Origin: Verrucomicrobia bacterium UBA4286
GTDB taxonomy: Bacteria; Verrucomicrobiota; Kiritimatiellia; RFP12; UBA1067
Assembly (NCBI GenBank): GCA_002395905.1
Contig: DGVK01000040.1
Span: forward strand, 1 to 24,958
Length of the DNA stretch: 24,958 bases
Direction of reading: 5' to 3'
How positions within the stretch are numbered: the stretch's first letter is position 1; each line of letters opens with the position of its first letter. The position numbers were made by a program, and so were the translations under genes. Shown here piece after piece: positions 8,442 through 24,881 of the stretch. The notes under the pieces were generated by a model. It worked only from the letters and a program-made list of their open reading frames with translations, was not told where the DNA came from and searched no databases.

Positions 8442-8443
8442 TT

Positions 8444-11215
8444 ATGAAATACATTGAGGAACATGATCTGCAAATCGCCGGGCCTTCGCTTTCCCGCAGG
8501 GCGTTTCTTGGCGGGGCGGCCGCGGCGGCGGCTTTCGCGCCGTCGGGATGCCTGCCGCGGAGATCCGGCGGCGACAGGCTCAAGGTCGGAGTGGTTTCGG
8601 ACGTGCATATCCTCGTGCAGAACGACTCAATGCATGGCGACATCTACTTCGAGAAGGCCCTGCGCTGGTTCGACGCGCGAAAGGCCGACGCGGTGCTGCT
8701 GTGCGGCGACATCGCGGACTGCGGACTCGTGGCGGAGCTGGAATACGCCGCCGAGATATGGTACAGGGTGTTCCCAGGCGGGAAGCGCTCCGACGGCCGG
8801 TCGATAGAGCAGCTCTTCCATCTCGGCGACCACGACCTGGGCGGCTTTGCGCACAAGTATCCGTGGGCGAAGTCGTCTTCGAAGGATCCCGACGCGCCCA
8901 ACCACGCGCTGGTGGACGAGGACGTCGCGGCGGTATGGGAAAGGCTGTTCCACGAAAAGTGGGCGCCGATCCAGGTGAAGAAGGTGAAGGGATACACGTT
9001 CGTGCTGGCGCATCATCCGCGCAACATGGCCAGCGGCACGGCGATACCGGGGCTTGCGGAAGCGCTCGACGCGGCGGACGACGATCCGTCCAGGCCGCTG
9101 TTCGTCTCGATGCACAGGCCGGTGCACGGCACGCTGCCGGAGTGGGATCCCAAGAGCCTGGCGAACGACGCCAACCACAGGGCGCTCGCAAGGCACCCGA
9201 ACGCGATAGCCTTCTTCGGCCACGCCCACCGCAACTGCGCCGACGACCTGAATCTATGGCAGGGCGAATACACCGCGCTGCACGTGCCGTCCACAAGCTA
9301 CTGCGGCACGCGCGGCGGACGCGAAAACTCGTTCTCGCCCGGGAACAAGGCGGACAAGGCCCGCCCGCAGCAGATGGACAGGGTGGACTGCACTTCGTCC
9401 AACCAGGCGCTTTTCATGACGGTCGGCGACGATCGAATTGAGATAGAGCGGCGGGACATCCGTCACGACGCGCCCATGGGCGACGACTGGACGATACCTC
9501 TGCCGTGCCCAGACGGGTCGTGCTCCGCCGAAGAGCGCAGACCGTATTCCTCCGCGCCGGAATTTCCTGAGGGGGCCGCCGTGGCCGTCTCGGGGCGCGT
9601 GGGCAGGAACCGCGCCAAGGAGGAGACGGCGCAGGTCGTCGTCGCCTTTCCGCCGGCGCATTCGCGCGCCGGACGTCCGCGCGCGTTCGACTACGAGGTC
9701 GCCGCCAGCGCGGAAGGTTTCAAGCTCGTCCGGCGGGTGTTCTCGTCCAGGGCGTACTGGAGCGAAGATTTCGAGAAGGAACCTTCCTCGTGCGTGTTCG
9801 CCCGGCACGAACTGCCGCTGGACAGGCCGGTGAGGTTCAGCGTGCGCCCGGCGAACTCCTTCGGCACGCACGGCGGCGCCCTGCTTGGCTCCGAGTGGAG
9901 CGCCCGCGGCGGAATGCGCTGGTATCGCGGAATGCTGCACATGCACACCCACTGGTCCGACGGGCGCGCCCTGCCGGAACAGGCCGTCGCCGCCTACAAA
10001 GACGCCGGCTACGACTTCATCGCCATCTCGGACCACAACCGCTTCCAGGACGACCCCGACAAGTGGATGCCGGTAGGCGACGGCACTGAGAAAGGCTGGC
10101 CGCCCAAGGCGGTGCATCCCGACTGCTTCAAGGCGTATGTCGAGCGCTTCGGGCGGGGCAACGTCCGCGAGCGTGACGGGCGGACGGAAGTGCGCCTCAC
10201 GACGTATCAGGAGCTCAAGAAGCGGTTCGACGAGCCGGAGAAGTTCCTTTTGCTGCCGGGCGTGGAAATCACGACCGACGCCAAAGCGACCGGCGTCACG
10301 CACGCGATGCACATGAACGTGATCGGCATCGACGACATAATCGATCGGGCGAAGAAGGCGAAGCTCATCGAGGGCTGCCCGAAGCACACCGTCTCGTCCA
10401 TCATCCGCGAGACGCGCGAAATGAGCGAGGCGCTCGCCAAGAAGCGCGGGCGCGACTGCATTTGCATGGTGAACCATCCGAACTGGCTCTTCTACGACGT
10501 GTTCGCGAAGGACTTGATCGACAACCCGGAGGTCCGCTACTTCGAGGTGTGCAACAACGGTTCTGAATGGCCGGTGCCGGACGAACTGGACGGCGAATGG
10601 TATTGCGACCATCTCTGGGACGCCGTGCTCGCCTACCGCATGACGCACGGCCAGCAGCCGCTCTACGGTTTCGGGTGCGATGACTCGCACTTCTATCCGG
10701 GCACGGGCCTGGAGTTCGCGGCGTTCGGCGACGCGTACATAATGGTGCTTTCCGAGTCGCTCACCCAGGAGGCGCTGTTCGCGGCGATCCGCGCCGGCAG
10801 ATTCTACGCGGCGTCCCAGCTGGACCTTGAAGACGTCCTGTTCGACCGCGAGACGGGAACGCTCACGGTGTCGGTCCCGGCGATAGAGGACGTGGCGTGC
10901 AAGATACGCTTCATCGCCACGAAGAAGGGCGCGCGGCTCGATCCCGTGCGCTACGTGGATATTCCCGCCACGGCCGAACACATGAACCGTTCGCGCAAGG
11001 TGCCGATCTACGACGAGCGCATAGGCGCGACGGCCAGGCTCGTAGAGGGGAAAAGGGGGCGGCGGCTCGAGGCGTCCTACACGCTCGCGGCGGACGACCT
11101 CTACGTCCGCGCCAGAGTTGAGACGGACGCCCCGACCAAGTTCAAGCGCGAGCGCTGCCTGCATCCTGCGCACCACACCGCATGGACGCAGCCGTACGCA
11201 AAGGAGGCGGAATGA
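8444..11215 (+). CDS. Exported calcineurin-like metallophosphoesterase fused to a PHP-domain phosphoesterase
   Basis: A 923-residue protein starting 2 bases after the preceding stop. It opens with a twin-arginine signal (SRRAFLGG at 17-24, an alanine stretch, then SGC with Cys36 as a possible lipid anchor). Residues ~48-300 carry metallophosphoesterase motifs: DVH (53-55), GD (Asp89), GDHD (128-131, where GNHD/E is usual), AHH (189-191) and GHAH (259-262). A beta-sandwich, FN3-like linker spans ~370-490. Residues ~495-800 form a PHP domain: HMHTHWSDG (His499, His501), SDHN (530-532), GVE (Glu608), NHPN (His678) and DDSH (His749). A beta-rich tail follows. Both halves should be metal-dependent phosphoesterases, and the Tat signal suits export of a folded metalloprotein. 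The substrate is unknown; phosphorylated glycan or nucleotide products are possible. It overlaps the next gene by 4 bases (ATGA). Confidence 0.85.
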   Translation: MKYIEEHDLQIAGPSLSRRAFLGGAAAAAAFAPSGCLPRRSGGDRLKVGVVSDVHILVQNDSMHGDIYFEKALRWFDARKADAVLLCGDIADCGLVAELEYAAEIWYRVFPGGKRSDGRSIEQLFHLGDHDLGGFAHKYPWAKSSSKDPDAPNHALVDEDVAAVWERLFHEKWAPIQVKKVKGYTFVLAHHPRNMASGTAIPGLAEALDAADDDPSRPLFVSMHRPVHGTLPEWDPKSLANDANHRALARHPNAIAFFGHAHRNCADDLNLWQGEYTALHVPSTSYCGTRGGRENSFSPGNKADKARPQQMDRVDCTSSNQALFMTVGDDRIEIERRDIRHDAPMGDDWTIPLPCPDGSCSAEERRPYSSAPEFPEGAAVAVSGRVGRNRAKEETAQVVVAFPPAHSRAGRPRAFDYEVAASAEGFKLVRRVFSSRAYWSEDFEKEPSSCVFARHELPLDRPVRFSVRPANSFGTHGGALLGSEWSARGGMRWYRGMLHMHTHWSDGRALPEQAVAAYKDAGYDFIAISDHNRFQDDPDKWMPVGDGTEKGWPPKAVHPDCFKAYVERFGRGNVRERDGRTEVRLTTYQELKKRFDEPEKFLLLPGVEITTDAKATGVTHAMHMNVIGIDDIIDRAKKAKLIEGCPKHTVSSIIRETREMSEALAKKRGRDCICMVNHPNWLFYDVFAKDLIDNPEVRYFEVCNNGSEWPVPDELDGEWYCDHLWDAVLAYRMTHGQQPLYGFGCDDSHFYPGTGLEFAAFGDAYIMVLSESLTQEALFAAIRAGRFYAASQLDLEDVLFDRETGTLTVSVPAIEDVACKIRFIATKKGARLDPVRYVDIPATAEHMNRSRKVPIYDERIGATARLVEGKRGRRLEASYTLAADDLYVRARVETDAPTKFKRERCLHPAHHTAWTQPYAKEAE
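11200..11207 (+). promoter_or_regulatory. Shine-Dalgarno site deciding the tannase-fusion start
   Basis: AAAGGAGG lies 4 bases before ATG 11212, inside the end of the previous gene. It selects 11212 over the in-frame ATG at 11182, and only the shorter product begins with a clean signal peptide. Confidence 0.8.
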
Positions 11216-14200
11216 GGTGTGCTTTTCTGGCGGCGTGGCTTTCCGCCGCGTGGTTGGCCTGCGCCGGTCCGTTCGACGCGGAGTTCGCGCGCATAAGGGC
11301 GGTGGCGGACGCCACGTGCGCCGTCACCGAAGTCTCGCTCCGCCTGAAGTCCGACCCGAAGGGCAAGGACCCGCTGGATGCGTGGCGGGCGGAGGCGAAG
11401 GAGGACGTTTCGGCGACAGACGCGTTCGTGCGCGTAGAGTTCACGCTCGCGCCGGAGCGCGGCAGCGACATAAAGTGCCGCGCCATGCTGCCCCTGCCCG
11501 GCAGATGGGACGGCCGGTTCTGGGGCCAGGGCAACAGCGGCCGCGCCGGCTCCCTCCCGGACCTTGACGCATACGTCGCGATGGGCACGGCCGCCGCGAC
11601 GACCGATCTGGGCACAACGGTCGCGAGCAAGAAATACCTCGACAAATCCCTGCCGTGGTCGGAGGCCTCCCTGCGGGACTTCAACTGGCGAGCGACGCAC
11701 CTGATGACGGTTTACGGCAAGCGCATCGTCGAGGCTTTCTACGGCGCTCCCGCCCGCCACGCCTATTTCAACGGCGGTTCGACCGGCGGGCGCCAGGGCA
11801 TGAGCGAGGCGATCCGTTTCCCGGGCGACTACGACGGCATAATAGCCGCCCTGCCCGACAATAGCGCGGCGGTGAGCGAAATCGCGCTGTGGCATCTCTG
11901 GCGGCAGACGCACGACGACGACGGGCGGGCCGTCTTCACGAAGGAAGACTTCGCGGCGCTTGCCGCCGCCGCCATAGAGTTCAGGGCGAAGACAGACCCG
12001 AAGCCTTACGCGGGCCATGTCATCGCGGACGGACGTTTCACGGAGGAAGAAATCGACGGCTTCATCGCCCTCGCCGGGGCGAAGCGCCCTGCGCTCGCCG
12101 AAGGCGACAGGCCCGCGCGCCTCAAGGCGCTGTATGTGCCGCTCATCCACGACGGGCGATGCTACTTCACCGGCTTCGCCCCAGGCACCGACCACGGCGC
12201 CAACTACAATTGGGGCAGCCTCCTTTCCATGCCGCACTTCCTCGCGGGCAAGGGCTTTCCGCAGTCGCGCTGGAAGGATGTCGGCTTCGAGCAGGTGGAC
12301 ATGTATCTCAGGGAGGCGGCGCCGGAGCTCAACGCCTGCTCGACGGATCTGGCCGCGTTCGCGGCGCACGGCGGCAAGATAATCATGACTGCCGGGTGGG
12401 AAGACCAGACGATCCCTCCCGGGCCGATAGTCGATTACTACGAGCGCGTGTGCAGGGACAACGGCGGACTCGCCGACGTCTCGCGCTTCATGCGGCTTTT
12501 CTGCATACCAGGCTGCGCGCACGGCGGCGGCCGCGGGCGGATCATGACCGGTTCGCCGTCCGGCCGCCAGGTGAAGGATCTGCTCGTCGCATGGTGCGAA
12601 GAGGGCGTCGCGCCGGAAAGGCTGGACGTCAAGTGGCGCGTCGGCGGCATCGACATGCCGGTCGCGCCGTATCCGTGGCTTTACCGCCAGGACGACGGCG
12701 GCCGCTGGGTTCGCGAGGAGCGCCGCCGTTGCGAGCCGACGATCCACCCTTCGTGTCTCGCCACGAAGAAGAACCCGGCGTCCGGCGCGCACGTGGTGCA
12801 GACCGGCTCCATCGCCGAGGGCGGCTTTGGCGCGGCGACGGCGGAGACTCTTACGCGCGACGGGTGCGGCACACTTCTCAATCTCTTTCACGGCAAATGG
12901 ACTGCCGATAAGGTGCGGGCCGTCGGCGAGCACTGCCGCAGGCACGGCTGCACATTCACGATGGACGAGATGTTCAACCGCTGGAGCGGCGACTGGAAGA
13001 AGGAGTATGCGCCGCAGAAGGACGCCATCTTCGCCGTGCTAGGCGAATACGCCGACGTGTGCGCCGGCACGCAGCACTACAGCGAGTCTGGCGGGCTCAT
13101 GTTCTACTGGCATCCAAAGAACGCGATGTACCATGGTGCGCCGTCGCCGCGCATCCCGCGCGGCGGCAGTTCGCTCGCGCAGGCCTACGCCGCGACGTGC
13201 GGACAGGCGCGGGCCGATCTCGCGCAGGCCAAGGCCGCCGGCCTGCCGCCGCCCTTCTTCTCCATAGAATGCGCGTTCGGCTTCGCGCCGTATCTTATTC
13301 GCGCCGGATACGACCGCGTAGATCTCGAAGTGGTGTATTCCGACGAACTGGAGCGCGCCTACGCCGGCGTCAAGACGGCGTCGGAGGCGTTCGGGCGCAA
13401 GAGCTTCGGCGCGGATATGGCGATGGACTGGTATGGCGGCATGCAAAGCGACGGTTTGTGGGAGGCGCGCTGGCGCACCTCCCTGTACCACGCCTGGCTG
13501 CGCGGCGCGGACCCGATCTACAACGAGCACGGACTGATGGGCCTGGCGAGCCACGGCCGCGACTTCGGGCACGACGACCCGGTGGCCGTGCGCTACCGCA
13601 AGACGCTTGCCGGTTTCACGGCCTGGTGCAGGGCGCATCCGCGCGCCGACGGCTATCCGCTCGCGGCGGTCGGCGCGATACAGGGGCGCTTCGACGGCTA
13701 CGTCGGGATGTTCCAGACCCATCTTTTCGGGCAGCGGACCAACGACGCATTCCGCGTGACGGAGGCCGACCGCACGGCCTGGCGGCTCTTCGACGGGCTT
13801 TACCGCCGTCGCGGCTGGCAGGAGCGCGACAGCTGGGGCGACGCCGACTTTTCGGGGAATCCGCCTCTGGGCGCGGCGAGCATCCTGCCTTTCGACGCGC
13901 CCGCCGGAGAGTTCGCGAAATACAGGCTTCTATTCTTCCTCGGGCGCAACGTGATGGACGATGCGCTATACCGCAAGCTGGTGGACTATGTGAAGGGTGG
14001 CGGGACGCTGATGCTCGCGTCGAGCCACCTCGCGGCTCAGGACGACCCTGCCGGAGCCTTCGTGCCCTACAACGGCGGCGACTGGTCGGAACTCGCGGGC
14101 GTGCGGATCGACGCGACTAAGAAGTGGCATCTGCCGCACGGCCTGAAGTTTGTGAAGAACCCCGGGCCCGGCTGGCGCTTCCAGCCGCTGACCAACGTCT

Positions 14201-14631
14201 GGGACCCGGACTTCATAGAGGGCGGCTTCGACCTGCCCTGTCTGGAGGCGACCACCGCCGTGCCGTTCGCCGTCGCGTCCGACAACTTCGTAGAAAAGCA
14301 TCTGGACGAATGCAAGGGCGTCGGCTTCGTGAACGAGCTGGGCAAAGGGCGCGTCGTATTTCTCGCGTCGCTCGATTCTCCGGGCGCGTTCGGCGTGCGC
14401 AAACTCTATTCCTTCCTGATGGCGAAAGCGCTGGAGGCCGTCGGCGCCGACGTCTGGCCGAAGGTGGAATGCGCCGACACCGTCCGCTGGAGCGTCTATC
14501 CGGACGGCACGGTCTATCTGCTGAACACTGAAGCGCACCTTTCGCAGGAGGCCGTGCTGCGGCGCTCCCCGGCGGGAGCCGGGAAGACGGTTCGCCTCGC
14601 GCCCGGTGAACTTGGGATAATGCCACAATGA
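11212..14631 (+). CDS. Secreted tannase/feruloyl-esterase-like domain fused to a GH-like TIM-barrel module
   Basis: A 1139-residue protein with a signal peptide (MRCAFLAAWLSAAWLACA). Residues ~20-500 match the tannase/feruloyl esterase family, alpha/beta hydrolases that cleave phenolic acid esters from sugars or polysaccharides. The nucleophile is Ser190 in NGGSTGGRQG, with Asp398 in AGWEDQTIPPG and His437 in PGCAHGGG. The family's CS...HC disulfide cysteines are absent (Gly189 and Gly438). After a basic Cys-containing linker (about 495-545), residues ~545-890 look like a glycosidase-type barrel (FTMDEMF, FFSIECAFGF with Glu686, DMAMDWYGG, YNEHGL). Residues ~900-1139 resemble the amidotransferase-like and C-terminal domains of large beta-galactosidases (LLFFLGRNVMDD, VKGGGTLMLASSHL). 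The second module's family is not recognised. It overlaps the neighbouring genes by 4 bases (ATGA) at both ends. It likely removes phenolic esters while the barrel handles the sugar. Confidence 0.8.
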   Translation: MRCAFLAAWLSAAWLACAGPFDAEFARIRAVADATCAVTEVSLRLKSDPKGKDPLDAWRAEAKEDVSATDAFVRVEFTLAPERGSDIKCRAMLPLPGRWDGRFWGQGNSGRAGSLPDLDAYVAMGTAAATTDLGTTVASKKYLDKSLPWSEASLRDFNWRATHLMTVYGKRIVEAFYGAPARHAYFNGGSTGGRQGMSEAIRFPGDYDGIIAALPDNSAAVSEIALWHLWRQTHDDDGRAVFTKEDFAALAAAAIEFRAKTDPKPYAGHVIADGRFTEEEIDGFIALAGAKRPALAEGDRPARLKALYVPLIHDGRCYFTGFAPGTDHGANYNWGSLLSMPHFLAGKGFPQSRWKDVGFEQVDMYLREAAPELNACSTDLAAFAAHGGKIIMTAGWEDQTIPPGPIVDYYERVCRDNGGLADVSRFMRLFCIPGCAHGGGRGRIMTGSPSGRQVKDLLVAWCEEGVAPERLDVKWRVGGIDMPVAPYPWLYRQDDGGRWVREERRRCEPTIHPSCLATKKNPASGAHVVQTGSIAEGGFGAATAETLTRDGCGTLLNLFHGKWTADKVRAVGEHCRRHGCTFTMDEMFNRWSGDWKKEYAPQKDAIFAVLGEYADVCAGTQHYSESGGLMFYWHPKNAMYHGAPSPRIPRGGSSLAQAYAATCGQARADLAQAKAAGLPPPFFSIECAFGFAPYLIRAGYDRVDLEVVYSDELERAYAGVKTASEAFGRKSFGADMAMDWYGGMQSDGLWEARWRTSLYHAWLRGADPIYNEHGLMGLASHGRDFGHDDPVAVRYRKTLAGFTAWCRAHPRADGYPLAAVGAIQGRFDGYVGMFQTHLFGQRTNDAFRVTEADRTAWRLFDGLYRRRGWQERDSWGDADFSGNPPLGAASILPFDAPAGEFAKYRLLFFLGRNVMDDALYRKLVDYVKGGGTLMLASSHLAAQDDPAGAFVPYNGGDWSELAGVRIDATKKWHLPHGLKFVKNPGPGWRFQPLTNVWDPDFIEGGFDLPCLEATTAVPFAVASDNFVEKHLDECKGVGFVNELGKGRVVFLASLDSPGAFGVRKLYSFLMAKALEAVGADVWPKVECADTVRWSVYPDGTVYLLNTEAHLSQEAVLRRSPAGAGKTVRLAPGELGIMPQ

Positions 14632-16667
14632 CCGCCGTCGCTTTGATGCTTGCCGCCGCCGCATGGATTGCATATCCGGGCGACTATGCGCTCTGGCGCG
14701 GAAACGATCTGCAGGCTCGCCGCATCGAGTTTGGCGGCAGGGGCTATCCCGTCTTCTGGGCGTCGTACGCGCCGCATCCGCTCGTAGAGTTCCGGCGGGA
14801 CGTGGACCTCAAGACTGCGGAGACTGTGGATATCGCTTGTGAAGGTGTCTGCCGGATAAAGGCTCTCGGTCTGCCGCCGCTGCAGGGCGTCTCGTCGAAC
14901 AAGTTCACCTTCCCTGCCGGCAGATACACGATTTCAGCTCGCGTCTATTCACAAGGCGCACCGCCGTCAATATATATAAACGGCCCGACGGTGAAGACGG
15001 ATTCGTTGTGGCGCGCCGACTGGCGCATGGAGGCCGCGTGGCTGCCTGGCGAGACGCCGCCGCCCGCCGAGTCGATCGAGGGATCCATACACGACCGGCC
15101 GTCCGGCATGGCGCTCGCCACACGCCATGCAGGGCCGGTGTCGATTCGGCGCACCCGCGCAAACCATCTTGTCGCCGACTTCGGCCGCGAGGTCTTCGGC
15201 TTCTTGAAACTTGAGGCCGTGAAAGGCTCGGGGCGTGTGCGCGTCATCTACGGGGAAAGCGAGCCCGAGGCGCTGTGCGAAGATTTCGACGGACCGGACC
15301 AGTGGGAATACGTCGACGTAGAGCCGGGGCCGGAGCATCGCCTCGCGGTGTCGCGCGGCTGGCGTTATGTGCAGGTTATACCGGACGCGGGAGTCTCTGT
15401 GGAAGGGGTGTCGATGGACGAGGAGCTCTGCTCGCTGTCGCGCGCGGGGGCGTTTCGATGCTCAGACGAACGCCTGAACCGCATATGGGAGGTTTCGGCC
15501 CGCACGCTGGAGCTTACTTCGCGCGAGCTTTATATAGAGGGGGCGAAGCGCGACCGCTGGACTTGGAGCGGCGACGCCCGGCAGAGCTATCTGATGGGCT
15601 ACTACCTTTTCGGGGAAACACGCATAGCGCGCGATACGTTGTTCTACCAGCGCGGCGGCGATCCGGTGGTGATGCATATAAACCGGATCATGGATTATAC
15701 TTTCTATTGGGTCATGTCTGTGCGTGAATACTACCTCTACACGGGCGACCGTCTCTTTCTTGAGCAGGTCTACGACAGGATGGTCTCACTCATGGATTTT
15801 GCAATCGCGCGGCTGGACGGCAACGGCCGCCCGCACGACATGCCGGGCGACTGGGTGTTCATCGACTGGGCACCTGAGAAACTGCACAACACGGGCGGTG
15901 TGACGAGTTTCGAGCAGATGCTGCTCGTAGAGGCGCTTGAAACGATGGCAGAGGTGTGCGGCGTGGTCGGGCGCGGCGATGCGGCGCTCTGGCGCGAGAG
16001 GGCGGCGAAGTTGCGGGCGGAGGTGGTGCCGCTCTTCTGGAATCCTTCAAAGGGTGCGCTCATGCACCTCTTGAAGGACGACGGCACTCTTGACGACCAG
16101 CTCACGCGATATTCCAACATGTTCGGCCTGGCGTGGGGGTATTTCAACGGCGCACAGCGTGAATCTGTCCTCGAAAACGTCATCTTCAACGATGCCGTCA
16201 TGCGTATACAAACGCCTTATATGCGTTTCTACGAACTGGAGGCGCTTTGCTGCCTTGGGATGAACGACCGTGTTCTGACCGAGGTTCGCGACTACTGGGG
16301 CGGGATGCTTGACGAGGGCGCGACGAGTTTTTGGGAACTGTACACGCCTGCGGAGAAGGGCGAGGCGAAGTACGCCATGTACGGCAGGCGGTTCGGCAAA
16401 TCGCTCTGCCATGCGTGGGGGGCGGGCCCTGTTTACCTGTTCGGCCGGTACGTGCTCGGCGTGGAACCGGTGAAGCCGGGCTATGCGGAATATCTGGTAA
16501 CGCCCAATCCCGGCGGTCTTACGTGGGTGGAAGGAACCGTCCCCACTCCGCACGGGCCTGTGAAAGTATCCGTGCACGATGGCGTCGCCAACGCGACCGG
16601 CCCGGCCGGGTGCAAAGGCGTTCTTCGCTGGCGTGGGCGTTCAATCCTCGTGCCGGCAGCCCCGTAG
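14628..16667 (+). CDS. Secreted alpha-L-rhamnosidase (GH78-type)
   Basis: A 679-residue inverting glycosidase expected to release terminal alpha-L-rhamnose from pectic rhamnogalacturonan or phenolic rhamnosides. A short hydrophobic N-terminus (MTAVALMLAAAAWIA) is a weak signal peptide. Beta-sandwich domains (about 20-265, with LVADFGREVFGFLKLE) precede an (alpha/alpha)6 barrel (about 275-600) and a C-terminal beta domain (about 605-679). The GH78 acid region reads EGAKRDRWTWSGD (residues 304-316), as in Bacteroides-type members that usually have DG.KRDRW.WSGD; here Glu304 replaces the first Asp. The general base is Glu570 in ATSFWE. The ATG lies inside the stop of the previous gene (ATGA), so translation is coupled, and this is the last gene of the hydrolase operon. 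No clear terminator is seen in the 48 bases before the next start. Confidence 0.88.
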   Translation: MTAVALMLAAAAWIAYPGDYALWRGNDLQARRIEFGGRGYPVFWASYAPHPLVEFRRDVDLKTAETVDIACEGVCRIKALGLPPLQGVSSNKFTFPAGRYTISARVYSQGAPPSIYINGPTVKTDSLWRADWRMEAAWLPGETPPPAESIEGSIHDRPSGMALATRHAGPVSIRRTRANHLVADFGREVFGFLKLEAVKGSGRVRVIYGESEPEALCEDFDGPDQWEYVDVEPGPEHRLAVSRGWRYVQVIPDAGVSVEGVSMDEELCSLSRAGAFRCSDERLNRIWEVSARTLELTSRELYIEGAKRDRWTWSGDARQSYLMGYYLFGETRIARDTLFYQRGGDPVVMHINRIMDYTFYWVMSVREYYLYTGDRLFLEQVYDRMVSLMDFAIARLDGNGRPHDMPGDWVFIDWAPEKLHNTGGVTSFEQMLLVEALETMAEVCGVVGRGDAALWRERAAKLRAEVVPLFWNPSKGALMHLLKDDGTLDDQLTRYSNMFGLAWGYFNGAQRESVLENVIFNDAVMRIQTPYMRFYELEALCCLGMNDRVLTEVRDYWGGMLDEGATSFWELYTPAEKGEAKYAMYGRRFGKSLCHAWGAGPVYLFGRYVLGVEPVKPGYAEYLVTPNPGGLTWVEGTVPTPHGPVKVSVHDGVANATGPAGCKGVLRWRGRSILVPAAP

Positions 16668-16679: not shown

Positions 16680-16716
16680 TTGTGCGCGCACTGCGAATAT
16701 GGTATAATTTCTTCAA
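16680..16716 (+). promoter_or_regulatory. Promoter of the transporter-kinase operon, leaderless start
   Basis: TTGTGC (16680-16685), a 17-base spacer and TGGTATAAT (16700-16708, extended -10) precede ATG 16716 by exactly 7 bases, so the message would begin at the start codon. A perfect 10-base palindrome, GTGCGCGCAC (16682-16691), lies in the spacer and could be an operator, though it is short and GC-rich. The whole promoter fits into the 48 bases between the rhamnosidase and the kinase genes. Confidence 0.75.
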
Positions 16717-19667
16717 TGGTTTCCAATGCAAGAGGGTCTGGCGGCCTGACGGCGTATCTTTCGCCGTTTGCCGCCTTTGCGCTGTCCGTCGGCTGCAGCG
16801 TCGGGTGGGGGGCGTTTGTCATGCCCGGCACGATATTTCTGCCTGGCGCGGGTCCGCTCGGCACCCTCCTTGGAATCGCGCTCGGCGCCGCGCTCATGCT
16901 GGTCATAGGCATGAACTACCACTACCTCATGCAACGCTACCCCGACGCGGGCGGCGCGTATGCCTACGTCTCGCGAATCTGCAACCACGACCACGGTTTT
17001 CTCTGCGCGTGGTTCCTCGTCCTCGCCTATGTTGCCGTCGTGTGGGCGAATGCGTCGGCCTTCTGCCTCATAGGGCGCAATCTGCTGGACGGGCTTTTTC
17101 AGGCGGGCGGTCACTACTCTGTCGCCGGTTATGACGTCTACACGGGAGAGATAGCCGTCACGCTTGCCGCTCTCGCGGCTCTCGCGCTCGTATGTCTTGG
17201 CGGCAGGCGCCTTGCCTCGCGCATCAACACGCTGCTCGCCGTGGTGCTCCTGGCGGGGATAGCCGCCGGGCTGGCCGCCGTGTTCGCGGCATGTCCGGAC
17301 GCGACGGCGAAGGCTTTCACGCCCCTCTTCGCCGAAGGGACGGGCAGGGCTGCGCAGGTCTTCGGGATTCTCGCTCTCGCGCCGTGGGCGTTCGTGGGGT
17401 TTGAATCCATCTCGCACTCTGTCGAAGAGTTCAACTTCAACCGCCGCCGGACGATCTGGATTCTGGCTGCGGCGCTTGCGGCGGGCGCTTTCTGCTACAT
17501 CGGCCTCACGGTCATCGCGGCTTCGACGGTTCCGCCGGGATGCTCCGGCTGGAACGACTATGTCGCGCGCCTCGGAGAATACGACGGCGTAGAGGGGCTG
17601 CCTGTATTCTACGCGGTGGAGAACGCCATGGGGCGCTACGGCGCGGAGATTCTCTGCTTCGCTACGTTCGCCGCGATAGCGACGGGGCTTATCGGCAATC
17701 TCATCGCCGCGAGCCGTCTTCTCTACGCCATGTCGCGCGACGGGATCATGCCGCAATGGTTCTCGCGTCTTTCGGCGGACGGCGCGCCGCGAAGCGCGAT
17801 GCTTTTCATCGTGGCGCTTTCGCTCTTCGTGCCGTTCGTCGGGCGCACGGCCATAGGCTGGATCGTGGATGTGACGACGATCGGCGCATGCGTCGCCTAC
17901 GGCTATGTATCCTACTGTGCGTTCGCCCGGGCGAGGACCGAGGGGCGCAGACTTGTCATGGCGAGCGGCGCGGCGGGGCTCGCGGCGTCGGCGGCGTTCA
18001 CGGTCTATTTCCTCGTTCCCAACCTGTGGTCGCTCGGCGCGTTCGCGCCCGAGTCGTATCTCGTGCTGGCTGCATGGAGCATCGCAGGCGTCCTCTGCTT
18101 CCGCCGCGTCATCGGCATGGACCGCGAACACCGTTTCGGAAAGACAACCGTGACGTGGCTTGTGATGATATTCCTTATATTCTTCACCTCGCTCACGTGG
18201 GTGAAGCAGGCGACCCACCGCGTCGCGGGCGAGGTGATGCAGCGCATAGGCGACTTTTACGCCGGCGGCGGCCAGGGCGCGGGAAGCGCGGGCGAGGGCG
18301 ACTTCATCGGGCGGCAGATGTCGTACGTGGGCGATGCGCTGATGCGCTACAGTCTGGTGCAGATGGTGCTCGTGCTGCTGGCGCTCGTCGTCATGTTCAG
18401 CATCTACCGCCATCTTTCGCGGCGCGAGCGCAGGGCCGAGATGAGCCGCGTGCGCGCCGAGGCGAGAAGCAGGGCCAAAAGCACGTTCCTCTCCAACATG
18501 AGCCATGACATACGCACCCCCATGAACGCCATAGTCGGCTACACCGCTCTCGCTGAACGCGCCGGGACGACGATGGAGCAGATGCGCGCCTACCTCGCGA
18601 AGATAGGCGCGGCGAGCGACCACCTGCTCGCGCTCATCAACGACATTCTGGAGATGAGCCGCATAGAATCCGGCCGGATGGAGCTCGACCCGTCCGCCGT
18701 GGACATTGCGGCTCTTGTGCGCGGGGTCTACGACATGTTCCTGACGCAGATGGAATCGAAGGGGGTCGCCTTCTCGCTGGACGCCGGGAGGCTCGTCCAC
18801 CGCCATGTGATGTGCGACGGCAACCGCCTCAACCGTGTTCTCCTGAACCTCGTGGGGAACGCCATGAAGTTCACGCCGCCCGGCGGGACGGTGGAACTCG
18901 CCCTGGCCGAGACGGGTTGCGAGGGCGGTCGCGCCGGATACGAGCTGCGCGTGAAGGACAGCGGTATAGGCATGAGCCCCGAGTTCGCCGCGCACGTCTT
19001 CGACGCGTTCACGCGCGAGCGCACGGCCACTGTGAACAGCATAGAGGGCACGGGGCTGGGAATGGCGATCGCGAAGAATCTCGTCGAGCTCATGGGCGGC
19101 ACGATAAAGGTCGATACAGAGCGCGGGAAGGGGACCGAGTTCATAATCGCGGTTGATTTCGATGTCGCGCCCGAACCCGTCGCCGGGAGTGATGCTTCAG
19201 AGAAGGGCGCCGCGCAGGAGATCGACTTCTCGGGCATGAAGATCCTTCTCGCCGATGACAACGAGATAAACCGCGAGATAGCGTCGGCGCTTCTCTCCGA
19301 CGCAGGGTTTGAAGTGGATACCGCCGAGAACGGCAAGGTCGCCGTCGAAAAGGTCGCGGGCGGCGGGCCGCGAAGGTACGACGCCGTCGTCATGGACGTG
19401 CGCATGCCGGTGATGGGCGGCTACGAGGCGGCGCGCGCGATAAGGGCGCTCGGCGTGGAAGGCGTGGGCGACGTGCCTATAGTGGCGCTGTCGGCGAATG
19501 CGCTGGAGGACGATGTAAAGGCCGCGCTCGCGGCGGGGATGGACGCACATGTCGCGAAGCCGGTGCGCGCGCAGGTTCTCATGGAGACGCTTTCGAAAGT
19601 CATCGCTTCGCGACGTGCAGGCGGTTCGGCGGCAAACGGCAGAACGGAGGAAAAAGATGCAGAATGA
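16716..19667 (+). CDS. APC-superfamily transporter fused to hybrid histidine kinase and receiver
   Basis: A 983-residue inner-membrane protein. Residues ~5-470 form an amino-acid/polyamine/organocation permease with about 12 membrane segments and the helix-1 break SVGWGAFVMPG. Two further segments (near 485-500 and 545-565) flank a ~45-residue loop rich in Gly. A charged linker leads to HisKA (SHDIRTP, phosphorylatable His597), the ATPase domain (NLVGNAMKF with Asn715; DSGIGMS; GTGLGMAIAKNL) and a C-terminal receiver (LLADDNE, phospho-acceptor Asp894 in VMDVRMPV, AKP). It probably couples uptake or binding of an amine or amino acid to phosphorelay signalling, as CbrA does with an SLC5-type domain. 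The start at 16716 is set by the -10 box; the in-frame ATG at 16680 lies within the promoter. Its 3' end overlaps the HPt gene by 11 bases. Confidence 0.9.
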   Translation: MVSNARGSGGLTAYLSPFAAFALSVGCSVGWGAFVMPGTIFLPGAGPLGTLLGIALGAALMLVIGMNYHYLMQRYPDAGGAYAYVSRICNHDHGFLCAWFLVLAYVAVVWANASAFCLIGRNLLDGLFQAGGHYSVAGYDVYTGEIAVTLAALAALALVCLGGRRLASRINTLLAVVLLAGIAAGLAAVFAACPDATAKAFTPLFAEGTGRAAQVFGILALAPWAFVGFESISHSVEEFNFNRRRTIWILAAALAAGAFCYIGLTVIAASTVPPGCSGWNDYVARLGEYDGVEGLPVFYAVENAMGRYGAEILCFATFAAIATGLIGNLIAASRLLYAMSRDGIMPQWFSRLSADGAPRSAMLFIVALSLFVPFVGRTAIGWIVDVTTIGACVAYGYVSYCAFARARTEGRRLVMASGAAGLAASAAFTVYFLVPNLWSLGAFAPESYLVLAAWSIAGVLCFRRVIGMDREHRFGKTTVTWLVMIFLIFFTSLTWVKQATHRVAGEVMQRIGDFYAGGGQGAGSAGEGDFIGRQMSYVGDALMRYSLVQMVLVLLALVVMFSIYRHLSRRERRAEMSRVRAEARSRAKSTFLSNMSHDIRTPMNAIVGYTALAERAGTTMEQMRAYLAKIGAASDHLLALINDILEMSRIESGRMELDPSAVDIAALVRGVYDMFLTQMESKGVAFSLDAGRLVHRHVMCDGNRLNRVLLNLVGNAMKFTPPGGTVELALAETGCEGGRAGYELRVKDSGIGMSPEFAAHVFDAFTRERTATVNSIEGTGLGMAIAKNLVELMGGTIKVDTERGKGTEFIIAVDFDVAPEPVAGSDASEKGAAQEIDFSGMKILLADDNEINREIASALLSDAGFEVDTAENGKVAVEKVAGGGPRRYDAVVMDVRMPVMGGYEAARAIRALGVEGVGDVPIVALSANALEDDVKAALAAGMDAHVAKPVRAQVLMETLSKVIASRRAGGSAANGRTEEKDAE
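19646..19650 (+). promoter_or_regulatory. Shine-Dalgarno site of the HPt gene
   Basis: GGAGG lies 6 bases before ATG 19657, within the end of the kinase gene, and fixes that start over the in-frame ATG at 19549. Confidence 0.75.
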
Positions 19668-20016
19668 ACTTCTCGACACCTTGGCGCAGAAGGGCTGCGC
19701 GATAAGCGAGATGCTCGCCGAAACCTTCATGGGCAAGGAGGACTTTTACGTGCGGATGCTCCGCAAGCTGCCTGCGAACACGAGCATGGACCGCCTCAAG
19801 GCGGCGCTTGACGCGAACAGCGCGCAGAGGGTTTTCGACGCTTCGCACGAGCTCAAGGGCCTTTATTCCACGCTCGGTCTTTCGCCGCTGTGGAAGATAT
19901 GCAACAGGATCGTCGAGACGACGCGGACGGGTTCGATGGACGGCGTCGCGGCGGATGTCGAGGCGCTTGCGCGGATGCACGCAGAATACGTGGCGCTCGT
20001 TTCGGCGCAGCGATGA
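19657..20016 (+). CDS. Stand-alone HPt phosphotransfer protein
   Basis: A 119-residue soluble histidine phosphotransfer protein. The hallmark HELKG motif carries His64, within an all-helical domain with conserved leucines (YSTLGLSPLWKI). It should accept phosphate from Asp894 of the transporter-kinase encoded just upstream and pass it to a receiver of the next protein, making the middle step of a His-Asp-His-Asp relay. The gene overlaps the kinase gene by 11 bases and ends 21 bases before the next start, so all three are likely made together. It has no additional domain. Confidence 0.88.
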   Translation: MQNELLDTLAQKGCAISEMLAETFMGKEDFYVRMLRKLPANTSMDRLKAALDANSAQRVFDASHELKGLYSTLGLSPLWKICNRIVETTRTGSMDGVAADVEALARMHAEYVALVSAQR

Positions 20017-20037: not shown

Positions 20038-21624
20038 ATGCTTCAGCACAAGGAGTTCGAGGGTTACAGGGTTCTCGTCGCCGAGGACGAGGAGATAACA
20101 CGCGAGGTGACGGCGGCGCTTGTCGAGGAGCTGGGCGCGAAGTGCGAGACGGTCTGCGACGGCGCGGCGCTCATAGAGCGGCTCAACGCGCCGGGGGGCG
20201 ACGAGATCGACCTCGTGCTCACCGACATCAACATGCCGCGCAAGAACGGTATCGAGGCGTGCGCCGAGTTCAGGGCGTCGGCCCACCCGAAGGCGAAGAC
20301 GCTGCCGTTCCTCGGCATGTCGTCCGATACGAACAGAGCCCTTTTCGACAGGGCGATCTCGGCCGGCATGAACGGCATGACGATGAAGCCGGTCTCCCGC
20401 GCGGCGCTTTATTCGCATTTCACGCTCACTCTCAAGGACAACCGCGCGAACGCGGTGTTCTGCGAGCGCGTCCAGCAGGCGCTCGACGCGGCGAAGGCCA
20501 AAAGCTACTTCTTCTCGACCGTGAGTCACGACATCCGCACGCCGCTCAACGCGATCATCGGCTTCTCGCAGATGCTCAAGATGGGCTTCAGCACGCGCGA
20601 GGAGCAGGACCAGGCGCTCGACTCGATCATGCTCAGCGGCAAGACGCTTCTGCAGCTCATTAACGACATTCTCGACCTCTCCAAGCTGGAGAGCGGCCGG
20701 GTCGCGCTGGCCAACGAGCCGACCGACTGCGCGAAACTTCTGAGCGAGATCGTCGATTCGTTCAAGATCGCCCAAAAGAAGCCGGGTGTCGAACTGCGCT
20801 GCAAGGCGGGCGGCCTCCCCCAGCTCGACATCGACCCGCACCGTCTGCGCCAGATGGCGTTCAACTTCTTCGCGAACGGAGTGAAATACACCGAGCGCGG
20901 CTTCGTCGAGCTGCGCGCGTCGTTCGAGCCGGGGGCTGACGGCAAAGACGGGACCTTCCTCCTTGAAGTCGAGGACACAGGCTGCGGAATAAGCGAGGAG
21001 GACCAGAAGCGCATCGACTCGCCCTACACGCAGGTCGGGAGCAAGCTCGCGCGCAACGGCGGGACTGGTCTCGGGCTCGCGATATGCCGTCAGCTCGCGG
21101 GCGCGATGGGCGGCGTCATGTCGCTCAAGTCCAAGCTCGGCGCGGGCACGACATTCAGCGTGAGGATCCCCCACGTCAAGGTCGCGGGCGGCTTTTCGCA
21201 GGTCTTGGCGCCCGCGCCCGCCGGGGAGAACGAGCCGGAGAAAAAGGAAATATCGTGCGTCATGGTGGTCGACGATTCAAAGGTGAACATCCTCGTTTTG
21301 AAGGCGATGCTCGCGCGGATCGGAATGGTGGACATCGAGACGGCTATGGACGGCGAGGAGGCCTACGCCAAGCTTACCGACCCTGCCGCGCCGCGTGTGG
21401 ATCTCGTGCTTACCGACATGTGGATGCCGAAGATGAACGGCGAGGCGCTCGTGCGCGCGATCAGGGCGAATCCGAAACTTGCGGACATGCCCGTGTACGC
21501 GGTAACGGCCGACGTCGAGATACAGAAGACCTACAAGAGCATGGGCTTCACAGGCATATTCCTTAAGCCTGTCACGATCGAGATGCTCAAAAACGCGGCA
21601 CCTTTCGCCGGCAGGGGGAAGTAG
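20038..21624 (+). CDS. Soluble REC-histidine kinase-REC hybrid protein
   Basis: A 528-residue cytoplasmic protein without membrane segments. The N-terminal receiver (about 10-130) has VLVAEDEEITRE and Asp63 in LTDINMP. A kinase core (about 150-385) has SHDIRTP (His164), the N-box NFFANGVKY (Asn276, Asn280), DTGCGIS and GGTGLGLAIC. A second receiver (about 405-520) has VMVVDDSKVN and Asp460 in LTDMWMP, with FLKP. In this arrangement the N-terminal receiver would be phosphorylated by the HPt protein and control the kinase, whose phosphate goes to the C-terminal receiver. There is no DNA-binding, cyclic-di-GMP or other output domain. Start 20038 is preceded by GGGGAG (20026-20031). It follows the HPt gene closely and precedes the ABC gene by 4 bases. 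Confidence 0.88.
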   Translation: MLQHKEFEGYRVLVAEDEEITREVTAALVEELGAKCETVCDGAALIERLNAPGGDEIDLVLTDINMPRKNGIEACAEFRASAHPKAKTLPFLGMSSDTNRALFDRAISAGMNGMTMKPVSRAALYSHFTLTLKDNRANAVFCERVQQALDAAKAKSYFFSTVSHDIRTPLNAIIGFSQMLKMGFSTREEQDQALDSIMLSGKTLLQLINDILDLSKLESGRVALANEPTDCAKLLSEIVDSFKIAQKKPGVELRCKAGGLPQLDIDPHRLRQMAFNFFANGVKYTERGFVELRASFEPGADGKDGTFLLEVEDTGCGISEEDQKRIDSPYTQVGSKLARNGGTGLGLAICRQLAGAMGGVMSLKSKLGAGTTFSVRIPHVKVAGGFSQVLAPAPAGENEPEKKEISCVMVVDDSKVNILVLKAMLARIGMVDIETAMDGEEAYAKLTDPAAPRVDLVLTDMWMPKMNGEALVRAIRANPKLADMPVYAVTADVEIQKTYKSMGFTGIFLKPVTIEMLKNAAPFAGRGK

Positions 21625-21628: not shown

Positions 21629-22378
21629 ATGGACGCTCTCAATGCTACGGACGTCTGCCGCGCTTATGGACCGCGGAAGGTTCTGGACGGGTTCTGCCTC
21701 ACGCTCGCGCCGGGCGAGTTCGCCGCGTTGATGGGGCCGAGCGGCAGCGGGAAGTCCACCTTTCTGAACATCGCGGCCGGGCTTGCGCGTGCCGATTCGG
21801 GCAGGGTAGAGATCGGCGGCGCGGACGTCACGGCGATGGGCGACGGCGCGGCGACGAGATTCCGCCGCCGGCATGTCGGCGTGGTCTTCCAGGCGTACAA
21901 TCTGCTCGAAGCGTACACGGTCGAGGAGAATATCGTCATGCCTGTCCGTCTGGACCGCGCCAGGGTAGACCGCGCGCGCCTTGCGCGCCTTGTCGAGGCG
22001 CTCGGGCTCGGCGGTCTCGAAAAGCGGCACCCCGCCGGGCTTTCGGGCGGCGAGCGCCAGCGTGTCGCGATCGCGCGCGCGCTGTTCGCGAAGCCGGATG
22101 TCATACTCGCCGACGAGCCGACGGGCAATCTCGACATGAAGTCCGCGCGCGAAATATGCGCGCTCATGAAATCTCTCAATGAAACGGAACACTGCGCGAT
22201 GCTGCTTGTGACGCACGACCCAGTCGTCGCGGCGAACGCGGGGACGGTTCATTTCCTGCGCGACGGGCGCGTGGCCGAATCGTTCGCGCCGTGCGGCGAC
22301 CCCGCCGAAGTGTCGCGCCGCTACCTCGCCGCCTTCGCTGCGAAGCCGGTCGACCCCGCCGGAAAGGACTTTCAATGA
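21629..22378 (+). CDS. ABC transporter ATP-binding protein, LolD/MacB/FtsE type
   Basis: A 249-residue ABC ATPase with Walker A GPSGSGKS (36-43, Lys42), Q-loop VVFQAYNLL, signature LSGGERQR (from 138), Walker B VILADEPTGNLD (Asp162, Glu163) and H-loop THD (His196). The NLLEAYTVEENI and GNLD phrases place it with the LolD/MacB/FtsE group, which power lipoprotein release, efflux or cell-division complexes through FtsX/MacB-like permeases. No such permease is encoded in this window: the next gene is a YitT protein of unrelated fold. It starts 4 bases after the preceding stop and its end overlaps the YitT start (ATGA), so it is embedded in the phosphorelay operon. The partner is unknown. Confidence 0.9.
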   Translation: MDALNATDVCRAYGPRKVLDGFCLTLAPGEFAALMGPSGSGKSTFLNIAAGLARADSGRVEIGGADVTAMGDGAATRFRRRHVGVVFQAYNLLEAYTVEENIVMPVRLDRARVDRARLARLVEALGLGGLEKRHPAGLSGGERQRVAIARALFAKPDVILADEPTGNLDMKSAREICALMKSLNETEHCAMLLVTHDPVVAANAGTVHFLRDGRVAESFAPCGDPAEVSRRYLAAFAAKPVDPAGKDFQ

Positions 22379-23304
22379 TTCTTGGAAAGAGAAAACCGTG
22401 GATTCGCGACGTGCTCGACCTGTGCACGATAACCGTGGCCTGCGCCGCCTACGCCGCCGCGTGGTCTGCGTTCATCCTCCCTTACGGACTGCTGACGGGC
22501 GGCGTGACCGGTTTGTCGAACCTTCTTTTCTACGCGTTCAAGATCCCGGTCGCCGTTTCGTATCTTGCAATCAACGCGATCCTTTACGTCGCGGCGCTCA
22601 AGTTCCTCGGCTGGAGGTTTCTCGCCAAGACGATATTCGCGACGGCGGTGCTCACGGTCTTCGTCGGGATCGGCCAGTCGCTCGTGACCGACCCGCAGAC
22701 GGGCGAGCTTGTGAAGCTTTTGGGCGACGAGAAGTTCATGGCGCTCTTCATAGGGTGTGTCGTTTGCGGCGCGGCGGTGGCGACGATGTTCAACACGAGC
22801 GGCAGCAGCGGCGGGACCGACATCGTGGCCGCGATCGTCAACAAGTATTTCCAGATATCCATCGGCTCGGTTCTGATGGCGCTCGACCTTCTCGTGATAG
22901 CGAGCGTCATGTTCATGCCTTCGTTCGGCGCGCCGATAGAACGGCTGCGCTTCGTGGCGTTCAGCCTGTGCGCGATGACGTTGGAGTGTGCCGTGATAAA
23001 CCACGTGCTCGCGATGTCGCGCAGGTCGGTTCAGTTCATGATATATTCGCGTCAGCACGAGCGGCTCGCGAAGGAGATTTCGCGCGTGACCGGCCACACG
23101 ATGACGATCCTCGACGGCCACGGCTGGTATACAGGCCGTGACATAAAGGTCATATGCATCCTGGCGCGCATGCGCGAGAGCGCGATCATCTTCGCGATAA
23201 TCCGCCGGGTCGATCCCGCCGCGTTCGTGAGCCAGAGCCGCGTGATAGGTGTCTACGGCGACGGCTTCGACGCGCTTTCGCGCAAGACGCCTTCCCGTGC
23301 CTGA
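22375..23304 (+). CDS. YitT-family integral membrane protein (DUF161 plus DUF2179)
   Basis: A 309-residue membrane protein. Five to six hydrophobic segments (about 15-220) contain the family phrases GLLTGGVTGLSNLLFY and TSGSSGGTDIVAAIV. The C-terminal cytoplasmic DUF2179 domain (about 225-300) has GHGWYTGRDIKVICIL. The function of the family is not established; transport of small solutes is suspected. The length is normal for the family. The start at 22375 lies in the ATGA overlap with the ABC gene and is served by AAGGA six bases upstream; a longer in-frame start at 22291 would add an unlikely basic, non-homologous extension. It is the last gene of the operon and ends 50 bases from the convergent neighbour, with no clear terminator between. 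Confidence 0.88.
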   Translation: MILGKRKPWIRDVLDLCTITVACAAYAAAWSAFILPYGLLTGGVTGLSNLLFYAFKIPVAVSYLAINAILYVAALKFLGWRFLAKTIFATAVLTVFVGIGQSLVTDPQTGELVKLLGDEKFMALFIGCVVCGAAVATMFNTSGSSGGTDIVAAIVNKYFQISIGSVLMALDLLVIASVMFMPSFGAPIERLRFVAFSLCAMTLECAVINHVLAMSRRSVQFMIYSRQHERLAKEISRVTGHTMTILDGHGWYTGRDIKVICILARMRESAIIFAIIRRVDPAAFVSQSRVIGVYGDGFDALSRKTPSRA

Positions 23305-23354
23305 CCGCGCGCCCCGATTCCGTCACGAGCGCACACGCAGTCACAAGCGCGCCG

Positions 23355-24881
23355 CTATTCGCGCCAGTATTCGTCGATCCACGCCGTCGGCTTGCAGGTG
23401 AGATGCGGCTTGACCGGCTTGTCGTATTTGAGGTAATAGCCCTCCTGCGCCTGCGGGAGGTCGGGCTGGCCGTGGAACGCCACGATCGACGCGCCCTTCG
23501 GCGGACGCCACGGCGCGAAAATCTTGTTGAGCGGGAACAGCGGCACAAGATGGCGTTTGAACGAACAGACCCATTCGTCCGGCCACCAGTTCACCCTCCC
23601 CGTGCGGCGCATGGCGTAGGTCTGGAACTTCTGCGAGCCGCGAAGGAATCTGTGCCGCTGGGAGTAGTCGTCCTTCTCGGCGATGAACGCGTCGTAAACG
23701 CCGCCCGACGTCCCTGCGTCGAACCTGAAGCACGACGAATTGCCGATAAGCGGCGTGCGGCGGAACATGGACTTGCGACGCTCGACCCAGTTGCGTATTA
23801 TGCAGAACTCGCCCGGGCGGTAGTCGAAAAAGCGGTCGAGCGGCCCGGTCACGAGAAGGTCGATGTCGAGAAACAGCGTCGGGCCCTGAAGATCGGCGAA
23901 CCCGTTGCGGAAGAAGCACAGCTTGACGAAGATATTCGGCCAGTCGCGCGCCAGCACCTTCGGGTCCTCGGGGATCGGAACGGCCTCAATTCCCTCGGCG
24001 AGGCCGCTTGCGTCGTCCGTCGCGCAGACAAATCTGAACGGACGCTTCAAGTTGCGCTTCACGCCCGCGTAAAGGCGGTTGACGTAATGCGGTCCGTAGT
24101 AGTCGCCCCATTTGAGGCAGAGGACGTTAACCGGAGCTATGCCAATGTCGACCGGCTTCTGGCGCGTGGAGACTTCTTCGCAGATTGCGTTCTGGCGGCG
24201 GTAGCGCTTGAACCTGCGGTGAAGCTTGAGCCTCACGAGCTCCGGCGAGAGCGCGTCCAGGGCGAGAAGGGTTCGTGAGGCCGGTTCGAAGTCGGTTATC
24301 CTCAGGCGGAAGTGTCCGTTGGCGCACCACTGCACAAGAATGTTCTGCGGATCGTAGAACCTTATCGCGTCGTGCGCGAGATCCTCTTCGAGGCTGTCGA
24401 ACGCCGCGAGCATGCGCCCGTGGGTCAGATGGTCCGCCGAGCGCCATTCCTCGTGGAACTTTCTCAGCGGGGAGCCGTCGGCGTTTCTTAGAAGATTCTC
24501 GATTATGCACCATCCTCTCTTCGGCAGGTGAACGGCCTCGACCTGCGACGGGAAAGCGGCCATCAGATTCTCGGGAAGGCGCTTCTTGAGCATGTTCCAG
24601 TAGAGCGCTTCCTGGCAGCACGTATTGCGGCGCCTGTCATGGCGGCAGGCGGTGATCTCCTTCACGACTGTCGGCGCGAGCGGCTTGAAAGGCATGTCGG
24701 ACGGGCGTTTTCCTTCGGCGATCTCCTCGTCGCTGCGGTAGCACTTGACGCAAAACAGACCGCCAGGCAGCGCGTAGCAGGCGCGCCGCGAGCCCATGCC
24801 CAGACGTTCGAGGCTCCCTGCGGCGAGCATGGCGTCGATTTCATCCGCCGACGGCCGCTCTATAGCTTCTTCAAAGTTCAT
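23355..24881 (-). CDS. YrbL-like kinase domain fused to a GT-A glycosyltransferase
   Basis: A 508-residue protein without signal peptide or obvious membrane segment. Residues ~20-235 resemble the YrbL/PhoP-network kinase-like family, related to lipopolysaccharide kinases: VKCY (possible ATP-binding lysine), FYDPQNILVQ (Asn180) and RITDFEP (Asp197 in the metal-binding position). Residues ~250-500 form a GT-A glycosyltransferase with VLCLKWGDYYGPHYVNRLY, FVCATDD, the DxD-type LFLDIDLLVTG (Asp339, Asp341) and a closing VAFHGQPDLP. The second half likely transfers a sugar from a nucleotide donor to a surface glycan, while the first may phosphorylate a sugar such as a lipid A or core residue. The ATG at 24881 is chosen because it lies 7 bases after an extended -10; the longer in-frame start at 24935 precedes the promoter. 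It is convergent with the YitT gene. Confidence 0.82.
   Translation of the reverse strand: MNFEEAIERPSADEIDAMLAAGSLERLGMGSRRACYALPGGLFCVKCYRSDEEIAEGKRPSDMPFKPLAPTVVKEITACRHDRRRNTCCQEALYWNMLKKRLPENLMAAFPSQVEAVHLPKRGWCIIENLLRNADGSPLRKFHEEWRSADHLTHGRMLAAFDSLEEDLAHDAIRFYDPQNILVQWCANGHFRLRITDFEPASRTLLALDALSPELVRLKLHRRFKRYRRQNAICEEVSTRQKPVDIGIAPVNVLCLKWGDYYGPHYVNRLYAGVKRNLKRPFRFVCATDDASGLAEGIEAVPIPEDPKVLARDWPNIFVKLCFFRNGFADLQGPTLFLDIDLLVTGPLDRFFDYRPGEFCIIRNWVERRKSMFRRTPLIGNSSCFRFDAGTSGGVYDAFIAEKDDYSQRHRFLRGSQKFQTYAMRRTGRVNWWPDEWVCSFKRHLVPLFPLNKIFAPWRPPKGASIVAFHGQPDLPQAQEGYYLKYDKPVKPHLTCKPTAWIDEYWRE

Follow-up and report, generated by a model that had tools for sequence, protein, structure and literature searches.

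We analysed a stretch of 24,958 nucleotides (the window; contig DGVK01000040.1, positions 1 to 24,958 of the forward strand) from Verrucomicrobia bacterium UBA4286, in which a single gene joins an amino-acid-type permease of the APC superfamily to a hybrid histidine kinase. We consider it probable (approximately 0.72) that this former permease is the ligand-binding input of the kinase. A small amino-acid-like solute would bind at a predicted site formed by two broken transmembrane helices (TM), TM1 (G30-W31-G32) and TM6 (P223-W224...G228-F-E230). Rocking of the permease core would then shift TM12 and the adjoining helical hairpin (residues 479-516 and 524-584), and the hairpin helix that leads into the DHp helix bearing H597 would alter autophosphorylation. 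The phosphoryl group is predicted to travel from H597 to D894, then to H64 of an HPt protein and finally to D63 of a neighbouring protein with receiver, HisKA and receiver domains (REC-HisKA-REC). The original prediction had already named the permease as the sensory part, and indirect evidence supports this role because Pfam detected no other sensor domain in the protein and because the same permease-hairpin unit also heads GGDEF proteins. The amine or amino acid that the prediction named would be a candidate for what the permease senses or takes up. Whether transporters can become receptors, and through which changes, is an open question for which few cases exist.

Permease and kinase in one reading frame

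The gene and its parts are as follows, with the basis of each assignment in brackets.

16716..19667, + strand: hybrid kinase of 983 aa, APC permease - hairpin - HisKA - HATPase_c - receiver (frame, Pfam, motifs, models)
16758..18029, + strand: APC permease domain PF13520, residues 15-438 (Pfam)
16803..16811, + strand: TM1 G30-W31-G32 (alignments)
17382..17405, + strand: TM6 P223-W224-A-F-V-G228-F-E230 (alignments)
18150..18467, + strand: hairpin of helix 479-516, a short turn and helix 524-584 running into the DHp helix (models; also in GGDEF-fused relatives)
18474..18674, + strand: HisKA domain, phospho-acceptor H597 (Pfam, motif)
18816..19160, + strand: HATPase_c domain (Pfam)
19242..19592, + strand: receiver domain, phospho-acceptor D894 (Pfam, motif)

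The frame runs from an ATG at 16716 to a TGA at 19665-19667 with zero internal stops, exactly as the original prediction had read it; an alternative TTG start at 16680 would yield a version of 995 aa. The family AA_permease_2 matched residues 15-438 with 109.7 bits (cut-off: 27) over profile positions 1-405 of 427. This match above the curated cut-off, across the domain, places the permease in the APC superfamily. HisKA (587-653), HATPase_c (701-815) and Response_reg (843-959) followed. The predicted catalytic residues were all present: H597 within SHDIRTP, the N-box (711-716), DSGIG (748-752), GTGLG (778-782) and, in the receiver, D847/D848, D894 and K948. The protein is therefore a hybrid histidine kinase by its three domains and their catalytic residues. 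PAS, HAMP or any other sensor domain was absent from its Pfam matches, and neither SSF (SLC5) nor Amt (ammonium transporter) was among the five Pfam families of the protein (P0001). STAC had no Pfam match, the presence of a STAC model in the library being unconfirmed, and this region was modelled as two long helices.

The structural model of residues 1-585 (predicted local distance difference test [pLDDT] 84.7; predicted template modelling score [pTM] 0.85) showed a break in TM1 at 29-31, as expected from the letters alone, and one in TM6 around 220-227. Unwinding of both helices, together with matches to AdiC, LAT and CAT, indicates a LeuT-like fold; the TM6 break was less clear in the full-length model (pLDDT 78.5, pTM 0.59). 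After the permease, the two extra segments and short loop that had been proposed appeared as long helices 479-516 and 524-584, with a turn that is presumably extracytoplasmic. In the full-length model the second helix extended over 524-614 and carried H597, so that in the models it appears continuous with the DHp helix.

A pattern search of a collection of genome contigs listed 594 matches, 577 of which encode relatives, hence at least 577. Our counts of named loci rest on the best 80 of these. In all 80 the permease and the HisKA motif lay in one frame, 8 of them ending at a contig edge further on; no break between permease and kinase was found. These 80 loci comprised 75 from Bacillota, two from Kiritimatiellota, one from Verrucomicrobiota, one from Spirochaetota and one without assignment, and 56 had titles that point to ruminant guts by mentioning a ruminant host, part of the rumen, Quinella or an isolate labelled RUG (rumen genome). 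Strain genomes were also represented (Lachnospiraceae bacterium AC3007, NK4A144 and Butyrivibrio sp. AC2005). In a collection of 5.8 billion proteins, 116 of the best 120, the near-copy of the window protein included, combined the GW, HisKA and receiver motifs as found by regular expressions. Because 80/80 loci keep one frame and 116/120 proteins carry all motifs, we conclude that the permease-kinase fusion is widespread and forms a large family in sequence databases.

Matches were present in 21 of the 58 genomes searched (the window's own included), and in several of them such genes lie in groups of two or three, for example on G048:C192, G004:C77, G022:C72, G028:C22 and G057:C122; one copy in G028:C22 is interrupted by a TAG stop. 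Both PF13520 matches of the window's own assembly (contigs C65 and C25) are kinase fusions. Among 5000 plasmid records listed, none contained a single region that spanned 80% of the query, and the five shown match the kinase half. The second permease-kinase of one genome (L120:6581-10357) continues for approximately 300 residues past the receiver, a part in which Pfam found no match. Other PF13520 permeases of the order (L140-L144, L146) continue at the C-terminus into long extensions, apparently soluble as judged by eye, and in this are unlike the kinase family. A frame of 1998 aa around the match in G071:C26 (L211) was judged by eye as unlikely to be coding.

The ortholog in genome G006, of the same genus, is 83% identical across residues 3-584. 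In the permease, the proportions of synonymous (pS) and nonsynonymous (pN) differences were 0.549 and 0.097, and the ratio of nonsynonymous to synonymous rates (dN/dS), obtained by the Nei-Gojobori method for this single pair, was 0.106. The hairpin gave 0.142, HisKA plus ATPase 0.168, the receiver 0.18 and the stretch of residues 26-38 0.034. The window permease is under purifying selection, which is stronger than that on the kinase or the receiver.

Upstream of the gene, a TATAAT ends 7 bases 5' of the ATG (16703-16716) and by eye there is no Shine-Dalgarno sequence, which would fit a leaderless transcript; the G006 ortholog likewise has a TATAAT shortly 5' of its start. A promoter scan of this upstream region returned 0 sites and Rfam 0 matches.

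Conserved permease positions and a second output

We compared permease positions in three alignments: A1 (the window and 27 of the 29 loci L010-L038, with the partial L029 and the stop-containing L031 excluded), A2 (the window, L010 and 45 of the 80 named loci) and A3 (40 of the 121 proteins P0001-P0121). W31, P223, W224, G228 and E230 were invariant in 73/73 kinase rows and in 50/50 rows of the cyclase (GGDEF) proteins described below. In an alignment with Escherichia coli AdiC, W31 corresponds to S26, W224 to W202 and E230 to E208; in AdiC these residues serve to bind the substrate, to gate the carrier and to sense protons. Where the window has W31, AdiC has S26 and the others compared (GkApcT, CAT/LAT) have A, S or T; none of these carriers has a kinase. 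The column of the TM5 lysine of ApcT-type proton-coupled carriers (K158 of ApcT) held L, F, M, Y or I in the 73 kinase and 50 cyclase rows, and the window permease thus differs from the ApcT type. The same column held L in 19/19 stand-alone permeases and in six of seven other permeases, and K solely in L139. Absence of the lysine was therefore rejected as proof of lost transport, the stand-alones likewise being without it.

Stand-alone permeases of Clostridia (P0235-like) share the GWG motif of TM1 and a similar TM6, and lack the hairpin and any output domain. Three of them (P0235, P0218, P0237) are 42-44% identical to the window permease. A search with P0235 (482 aa) gave 2944 matches at E <= 0.001; the best 120 listed were permease domains only and, where named, came from Clostridia or Oscillospiraceae, and matches beyond these 120 may include fused forms. 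Counts for stand-alones rest on 19 rows; eight rows labelled 'SOLO' are not quoted, since there are fragments among them that may come from fused proteins. Sensor (n=67) and stand-alone (n=19) rows differed at five nearly fixed positions: W110 (67/67) versus P (18/19), A111 (66/67) versus L (19/19), E230 (67/67) versus D (17/19), T323 (65/67) versus S (17/19) and V386 (65/67) versus M (18/19).

With the permease alone as query, 50 of the 120 matches listed were proteins of approximately 740 aa with a GGDEF motif (P0125, P0131-P0134 and others). Pfam confirmed AA_permease_2 plus GGDEF at one locus (L233, 3897-6128), where a second GGDEF protein and an HD-domain protein are neighbours of the gene. 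The eight cyclases compared had a hairpin resembling the one in the kinases, and it reached the start of the GGDEF domain. These findings suggest that permease and hairpin form an input module with exchangeable outputs, a transporter recycled as a receptor.

In a tree of permease domains (quick IQ-TREE run on 89 hand-picked rows: 42 of 73 kinase, 25 of 50 cyclase, 19 stand-alone and three of seven other permeases), the 42 kinase and 25 cyclase rows formed one clade against the stand-alone and other permeases (SH-like approximate likelihood ratio test, SH-aLRT, 99.9); L210, L231, L139 and L140 had long branches. The tree shows two cyclase clades, and separate origins of the cyclase fusions were set aside, as a single clade was not rejected (P value of the approximately unbiased test, p-AU, 0.356). 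For the Kiritimatiellae-type kinases as a single clade p-AU was 0.057; the Kiritimatiellae locus L103 fell within the window's clade. Since stand-alone, kinase-fused and cyclase-fused forms stand on one tree with few near-fixed differences (110, 111, 230, 323, 386), exchanging these residues offers a test of how a carrier could become a receptor.

A broader picture is conceivable, and we offer it tentatively, as something short of likely. A transporter may have turned once into a general receptor, and its permease-hairpin module, used like MASE or Cache inputs, may have been passed among gut phyla onto kinases and cyclases to feed cyclic-di-GMP and surface-polysaccharide control, the near-fixed changes in TM3, TM6, TM8 and TM10 having stopped or slowed transport. 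Such work would also reveal what serves as input to a large group of signalling proteins from gut and rumen, which metagenome-assembled genome entries in NCBI, where they give a name, call only 'amino acid permease'.

Known systems and alternative readings

APC and SLC5 carriers both belong to the broad LeuT fold class. The family described here is the APC counterpart of known transporter-fused sensor kinases. The original prediction had called an APC-kinase architecture much less familiar. This holds for the literature, where titles or abstract openings among the open-licence matches listed named no fusion of a kinase or GGDEF to an APC or amino-acid-permease domain; it does not hold for sequence databases, given the size of the family. 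CbrA and CrbS, as described in excerpts of PMC7096432 and PMC13022988 (the latter a cryo-EM preprint on CbrA), likewise consist of a single chain in which a secondary transporter with many helices precedes a histidine kinase. They differ in having an SLC5 domain, which in CbrA is followed by STAC and PAS before the kinase, whereas the window protein has an APC domain and a two-helix hairpin leading straight into the DHp helix; the permease-hairpin module also occurs on GGDEF. In the ammonium sensor kinase Ks-Amt5, an uptake transporter has become a sensor that is linked directly to the kinase, with no PAS, HAMP or STAC, and ligand control of the kinase was measured (PMC5764959, in part). Ks-Amt5 has an Amt domain, a trimeric core, DHp and CA without a receiver, and another ligand. 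Some archaea carry an amino-acid permease followed by USP domains, according to excerpts of PMC3673472. This joins PF13520 to a regulatory domain, but in these excerpts the permease bears neither a kinase nor GGDEF; permease and HisKA occur there on different USP fusions, which ruled the paper out as a prior report. Ks-Amt5 shows that a transporter can be the sensor of a kinase, and CbrA that such a fusion need not put the kinase under the transporter's control, as far as these partial sources go.

Several observations weigh against the permease as receptor. W31 was present in 19/19 and W224 in 16/19 stand-alone permeases; these residues therefore do not separate receptor from transporter, and W31 was rejected as a receptor mark. 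No DNA-binding regulator was found beside the window kinase. In CbrA, conceptually the closest analogue, signalling did not require the transporter domain, and L-histidine had no significant effect on activities (excerpts of PMC7096432). Moreover, the neighbour genes of relatives point to no single ligand. We examined these neighbours in 77 of the 80 named loci (L054, L071 and L098 were dropped), using a longest-open-reading-frame (ORF) rule.

One ligand that would be compatible with our explanation is a sulfur compound or sulfur amino acid, which we think unlikely as the signal of the module. Among loci with a downstream ORF, the permease-kinase had a short rhodanese-like protein at +1 or +2 in 15/22 Selenomonad/Quinella and 2/9 Oscillospiraceae-type loci, but in 0/27 Lachnospiraceae-type and 0/11 other loci, nor did one lie beside the window kinase. 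By position, it occurred at +1 in 16/69, at +2 in 3/63 and nowhere else between -5 and +5. These neighbours were called by BLAST, with Pfam run on L080 and L049 only; the ORFs are L080:10880-11290 and 18 further, mostly from Selenomonads, with two loci in Oscillibacter. Neighbours of stand-alone permeases were read at nine loci (L199, L208, L209, L210, L228, L229, L230, L231 and L232), of which L199 was too short. The far stand-alones of L229, L230 and L232 adjoin a pyridine-nucleotide-disulfide reductase bearing a rhodanese domain, and a YedE-type sulfur transporter (checked by Pfam in L229, by eye in L230 and L232); these genes would also fit a sulfur ligand, but the L229 reductase scored below the curated cut-off for CoA-disulfide reductase. 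Two nearer stand-alones lie directly after MurT and a GATase_3 protein (L209, permease at 6226-7635) and after a GATase_3 protein (L208), and others next to unrelated genes (L228, L231). With no single substrate across the nine loci, the stand-alone neighbours were rejected as a substrate clue. The rhodanese neighbours may, from gene order, serve as a lead to a sulfur compound in some members, excluding the window kinase.

Alternatively, the permease could be a working transporter that imports its solute, the fusion merely co-localizing or co-expressing a passenger kinase that reads something else. CbrA offers a precedent for this (PMC7096432, in part), the permease is the most constrained part of the protein, as expected for a working carrier, and stand-alones share many of the conserved positions (in a comparison without L210 and four far stand-alones). 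We nevertheless regard it as unlikely, since in CbrA a PAS domain separates the transporter from the kinase (excerpts of the same source) and the Pfam listing of the window kinase has none, since one and the same permease-hairpin unit is joined to either a kinase or GGDEF as output, and since sensors differ from stand-alones at W110, A111, E230, T323 and V386. That the turn and hairpin are the true sensor, with the permease as an anchor or partner-recruiting scaffold, seems improbable. The hairpin is modelled as continuous with DHp and is common to kinase and cyclase forms, which such a sensor would explain, but its turn varies in sequence and length, whereas many permease positions are invariant. 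An assembly or frame artefact has next to no probability left and was ruled out: the window comes from a fragmented assembly (237 contigs, 82.58% complete), but the relatives read through in one frame, the ortholog has in-frame gaps, and strain genomes (AC3007, AC2005) carry the gene.

Probable relay partners and neighbouring genes

The genes downstream of the kinase are as follows.

19657..20016, + strand: HPt protein with H64, its start overlapping the stop of the kinase gene (Pfam, motif)
20038..21624, + strand: receiver-HisKA-HATPase-receiver protein, D63, H164, D460 (Pfam, motifs; homologs in L119, L122, L123, L124)
21629..22378, + strand: ABC-type ATPase, 4 bases past the REC-HisKA-REC gene (Pfam; 84% homolog in the ortholog locus L119)
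22375..23304, + strand: YitT/DUF2179 membrane protein overlapping the ATPase stop (Pfam, gene order)

The ORFs at 22398-23141 and 23154-24278 are probably spurious, being arginine-rich and without a Pfam match; 22375-23304 is the gene at the first of these places.

The ortholog locus L119 keeps the order kinase, HPt, REC-HisKA-REC, with a homolog of the ABC ATPase, and L124 has homologs of the window HPt and REC-HisKA-REC proteins. The paralogous permease-kinases of L122 and L123 themselves end in an HPt domain (Pfam), and each is followed by a gene of the REC-HisKA-REC kind. Two Clostridia loci have the order REC-GGDEF-EAL, HPt, permease-kinase, complete in L234 and with the kinase cut after HisKA by the contig end in L213. 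This gene order, the HPt fusions and the L213 and L234 sets support a relay from the kinase via a receiver and HPt to a second receiver; cyclic-di-GMP is one predicted output. The REC-HisKA-REC protein is likely to be the next relay partner.

A homolog of a WecG-type glycosyltransferase was found in 7 of the 20 loci examined from relatives of the window's order (the query's included), and six of these matches span 91% or more of the query; Pfam was run on L125 and L127. Surface polysaccharide is thereby suggested as another output in relatives. In L125, L127, L131 and L134, the permease-kinases lie near WecG, STAS and approximately 1060-aa kinase homologs and a glycosyltransferase homolog (weak in L127).

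Upstream of the kinase, positions 3-16667 of the window encode a GH2 protein, an AraC-type regulator with a sugar-binding domain, a laminin-G protein, a metallophosphoesterase, a tannase/feruloyl esterase and an alpha-rhamnosidase, which look like genes for the use of plant polysaccharides.

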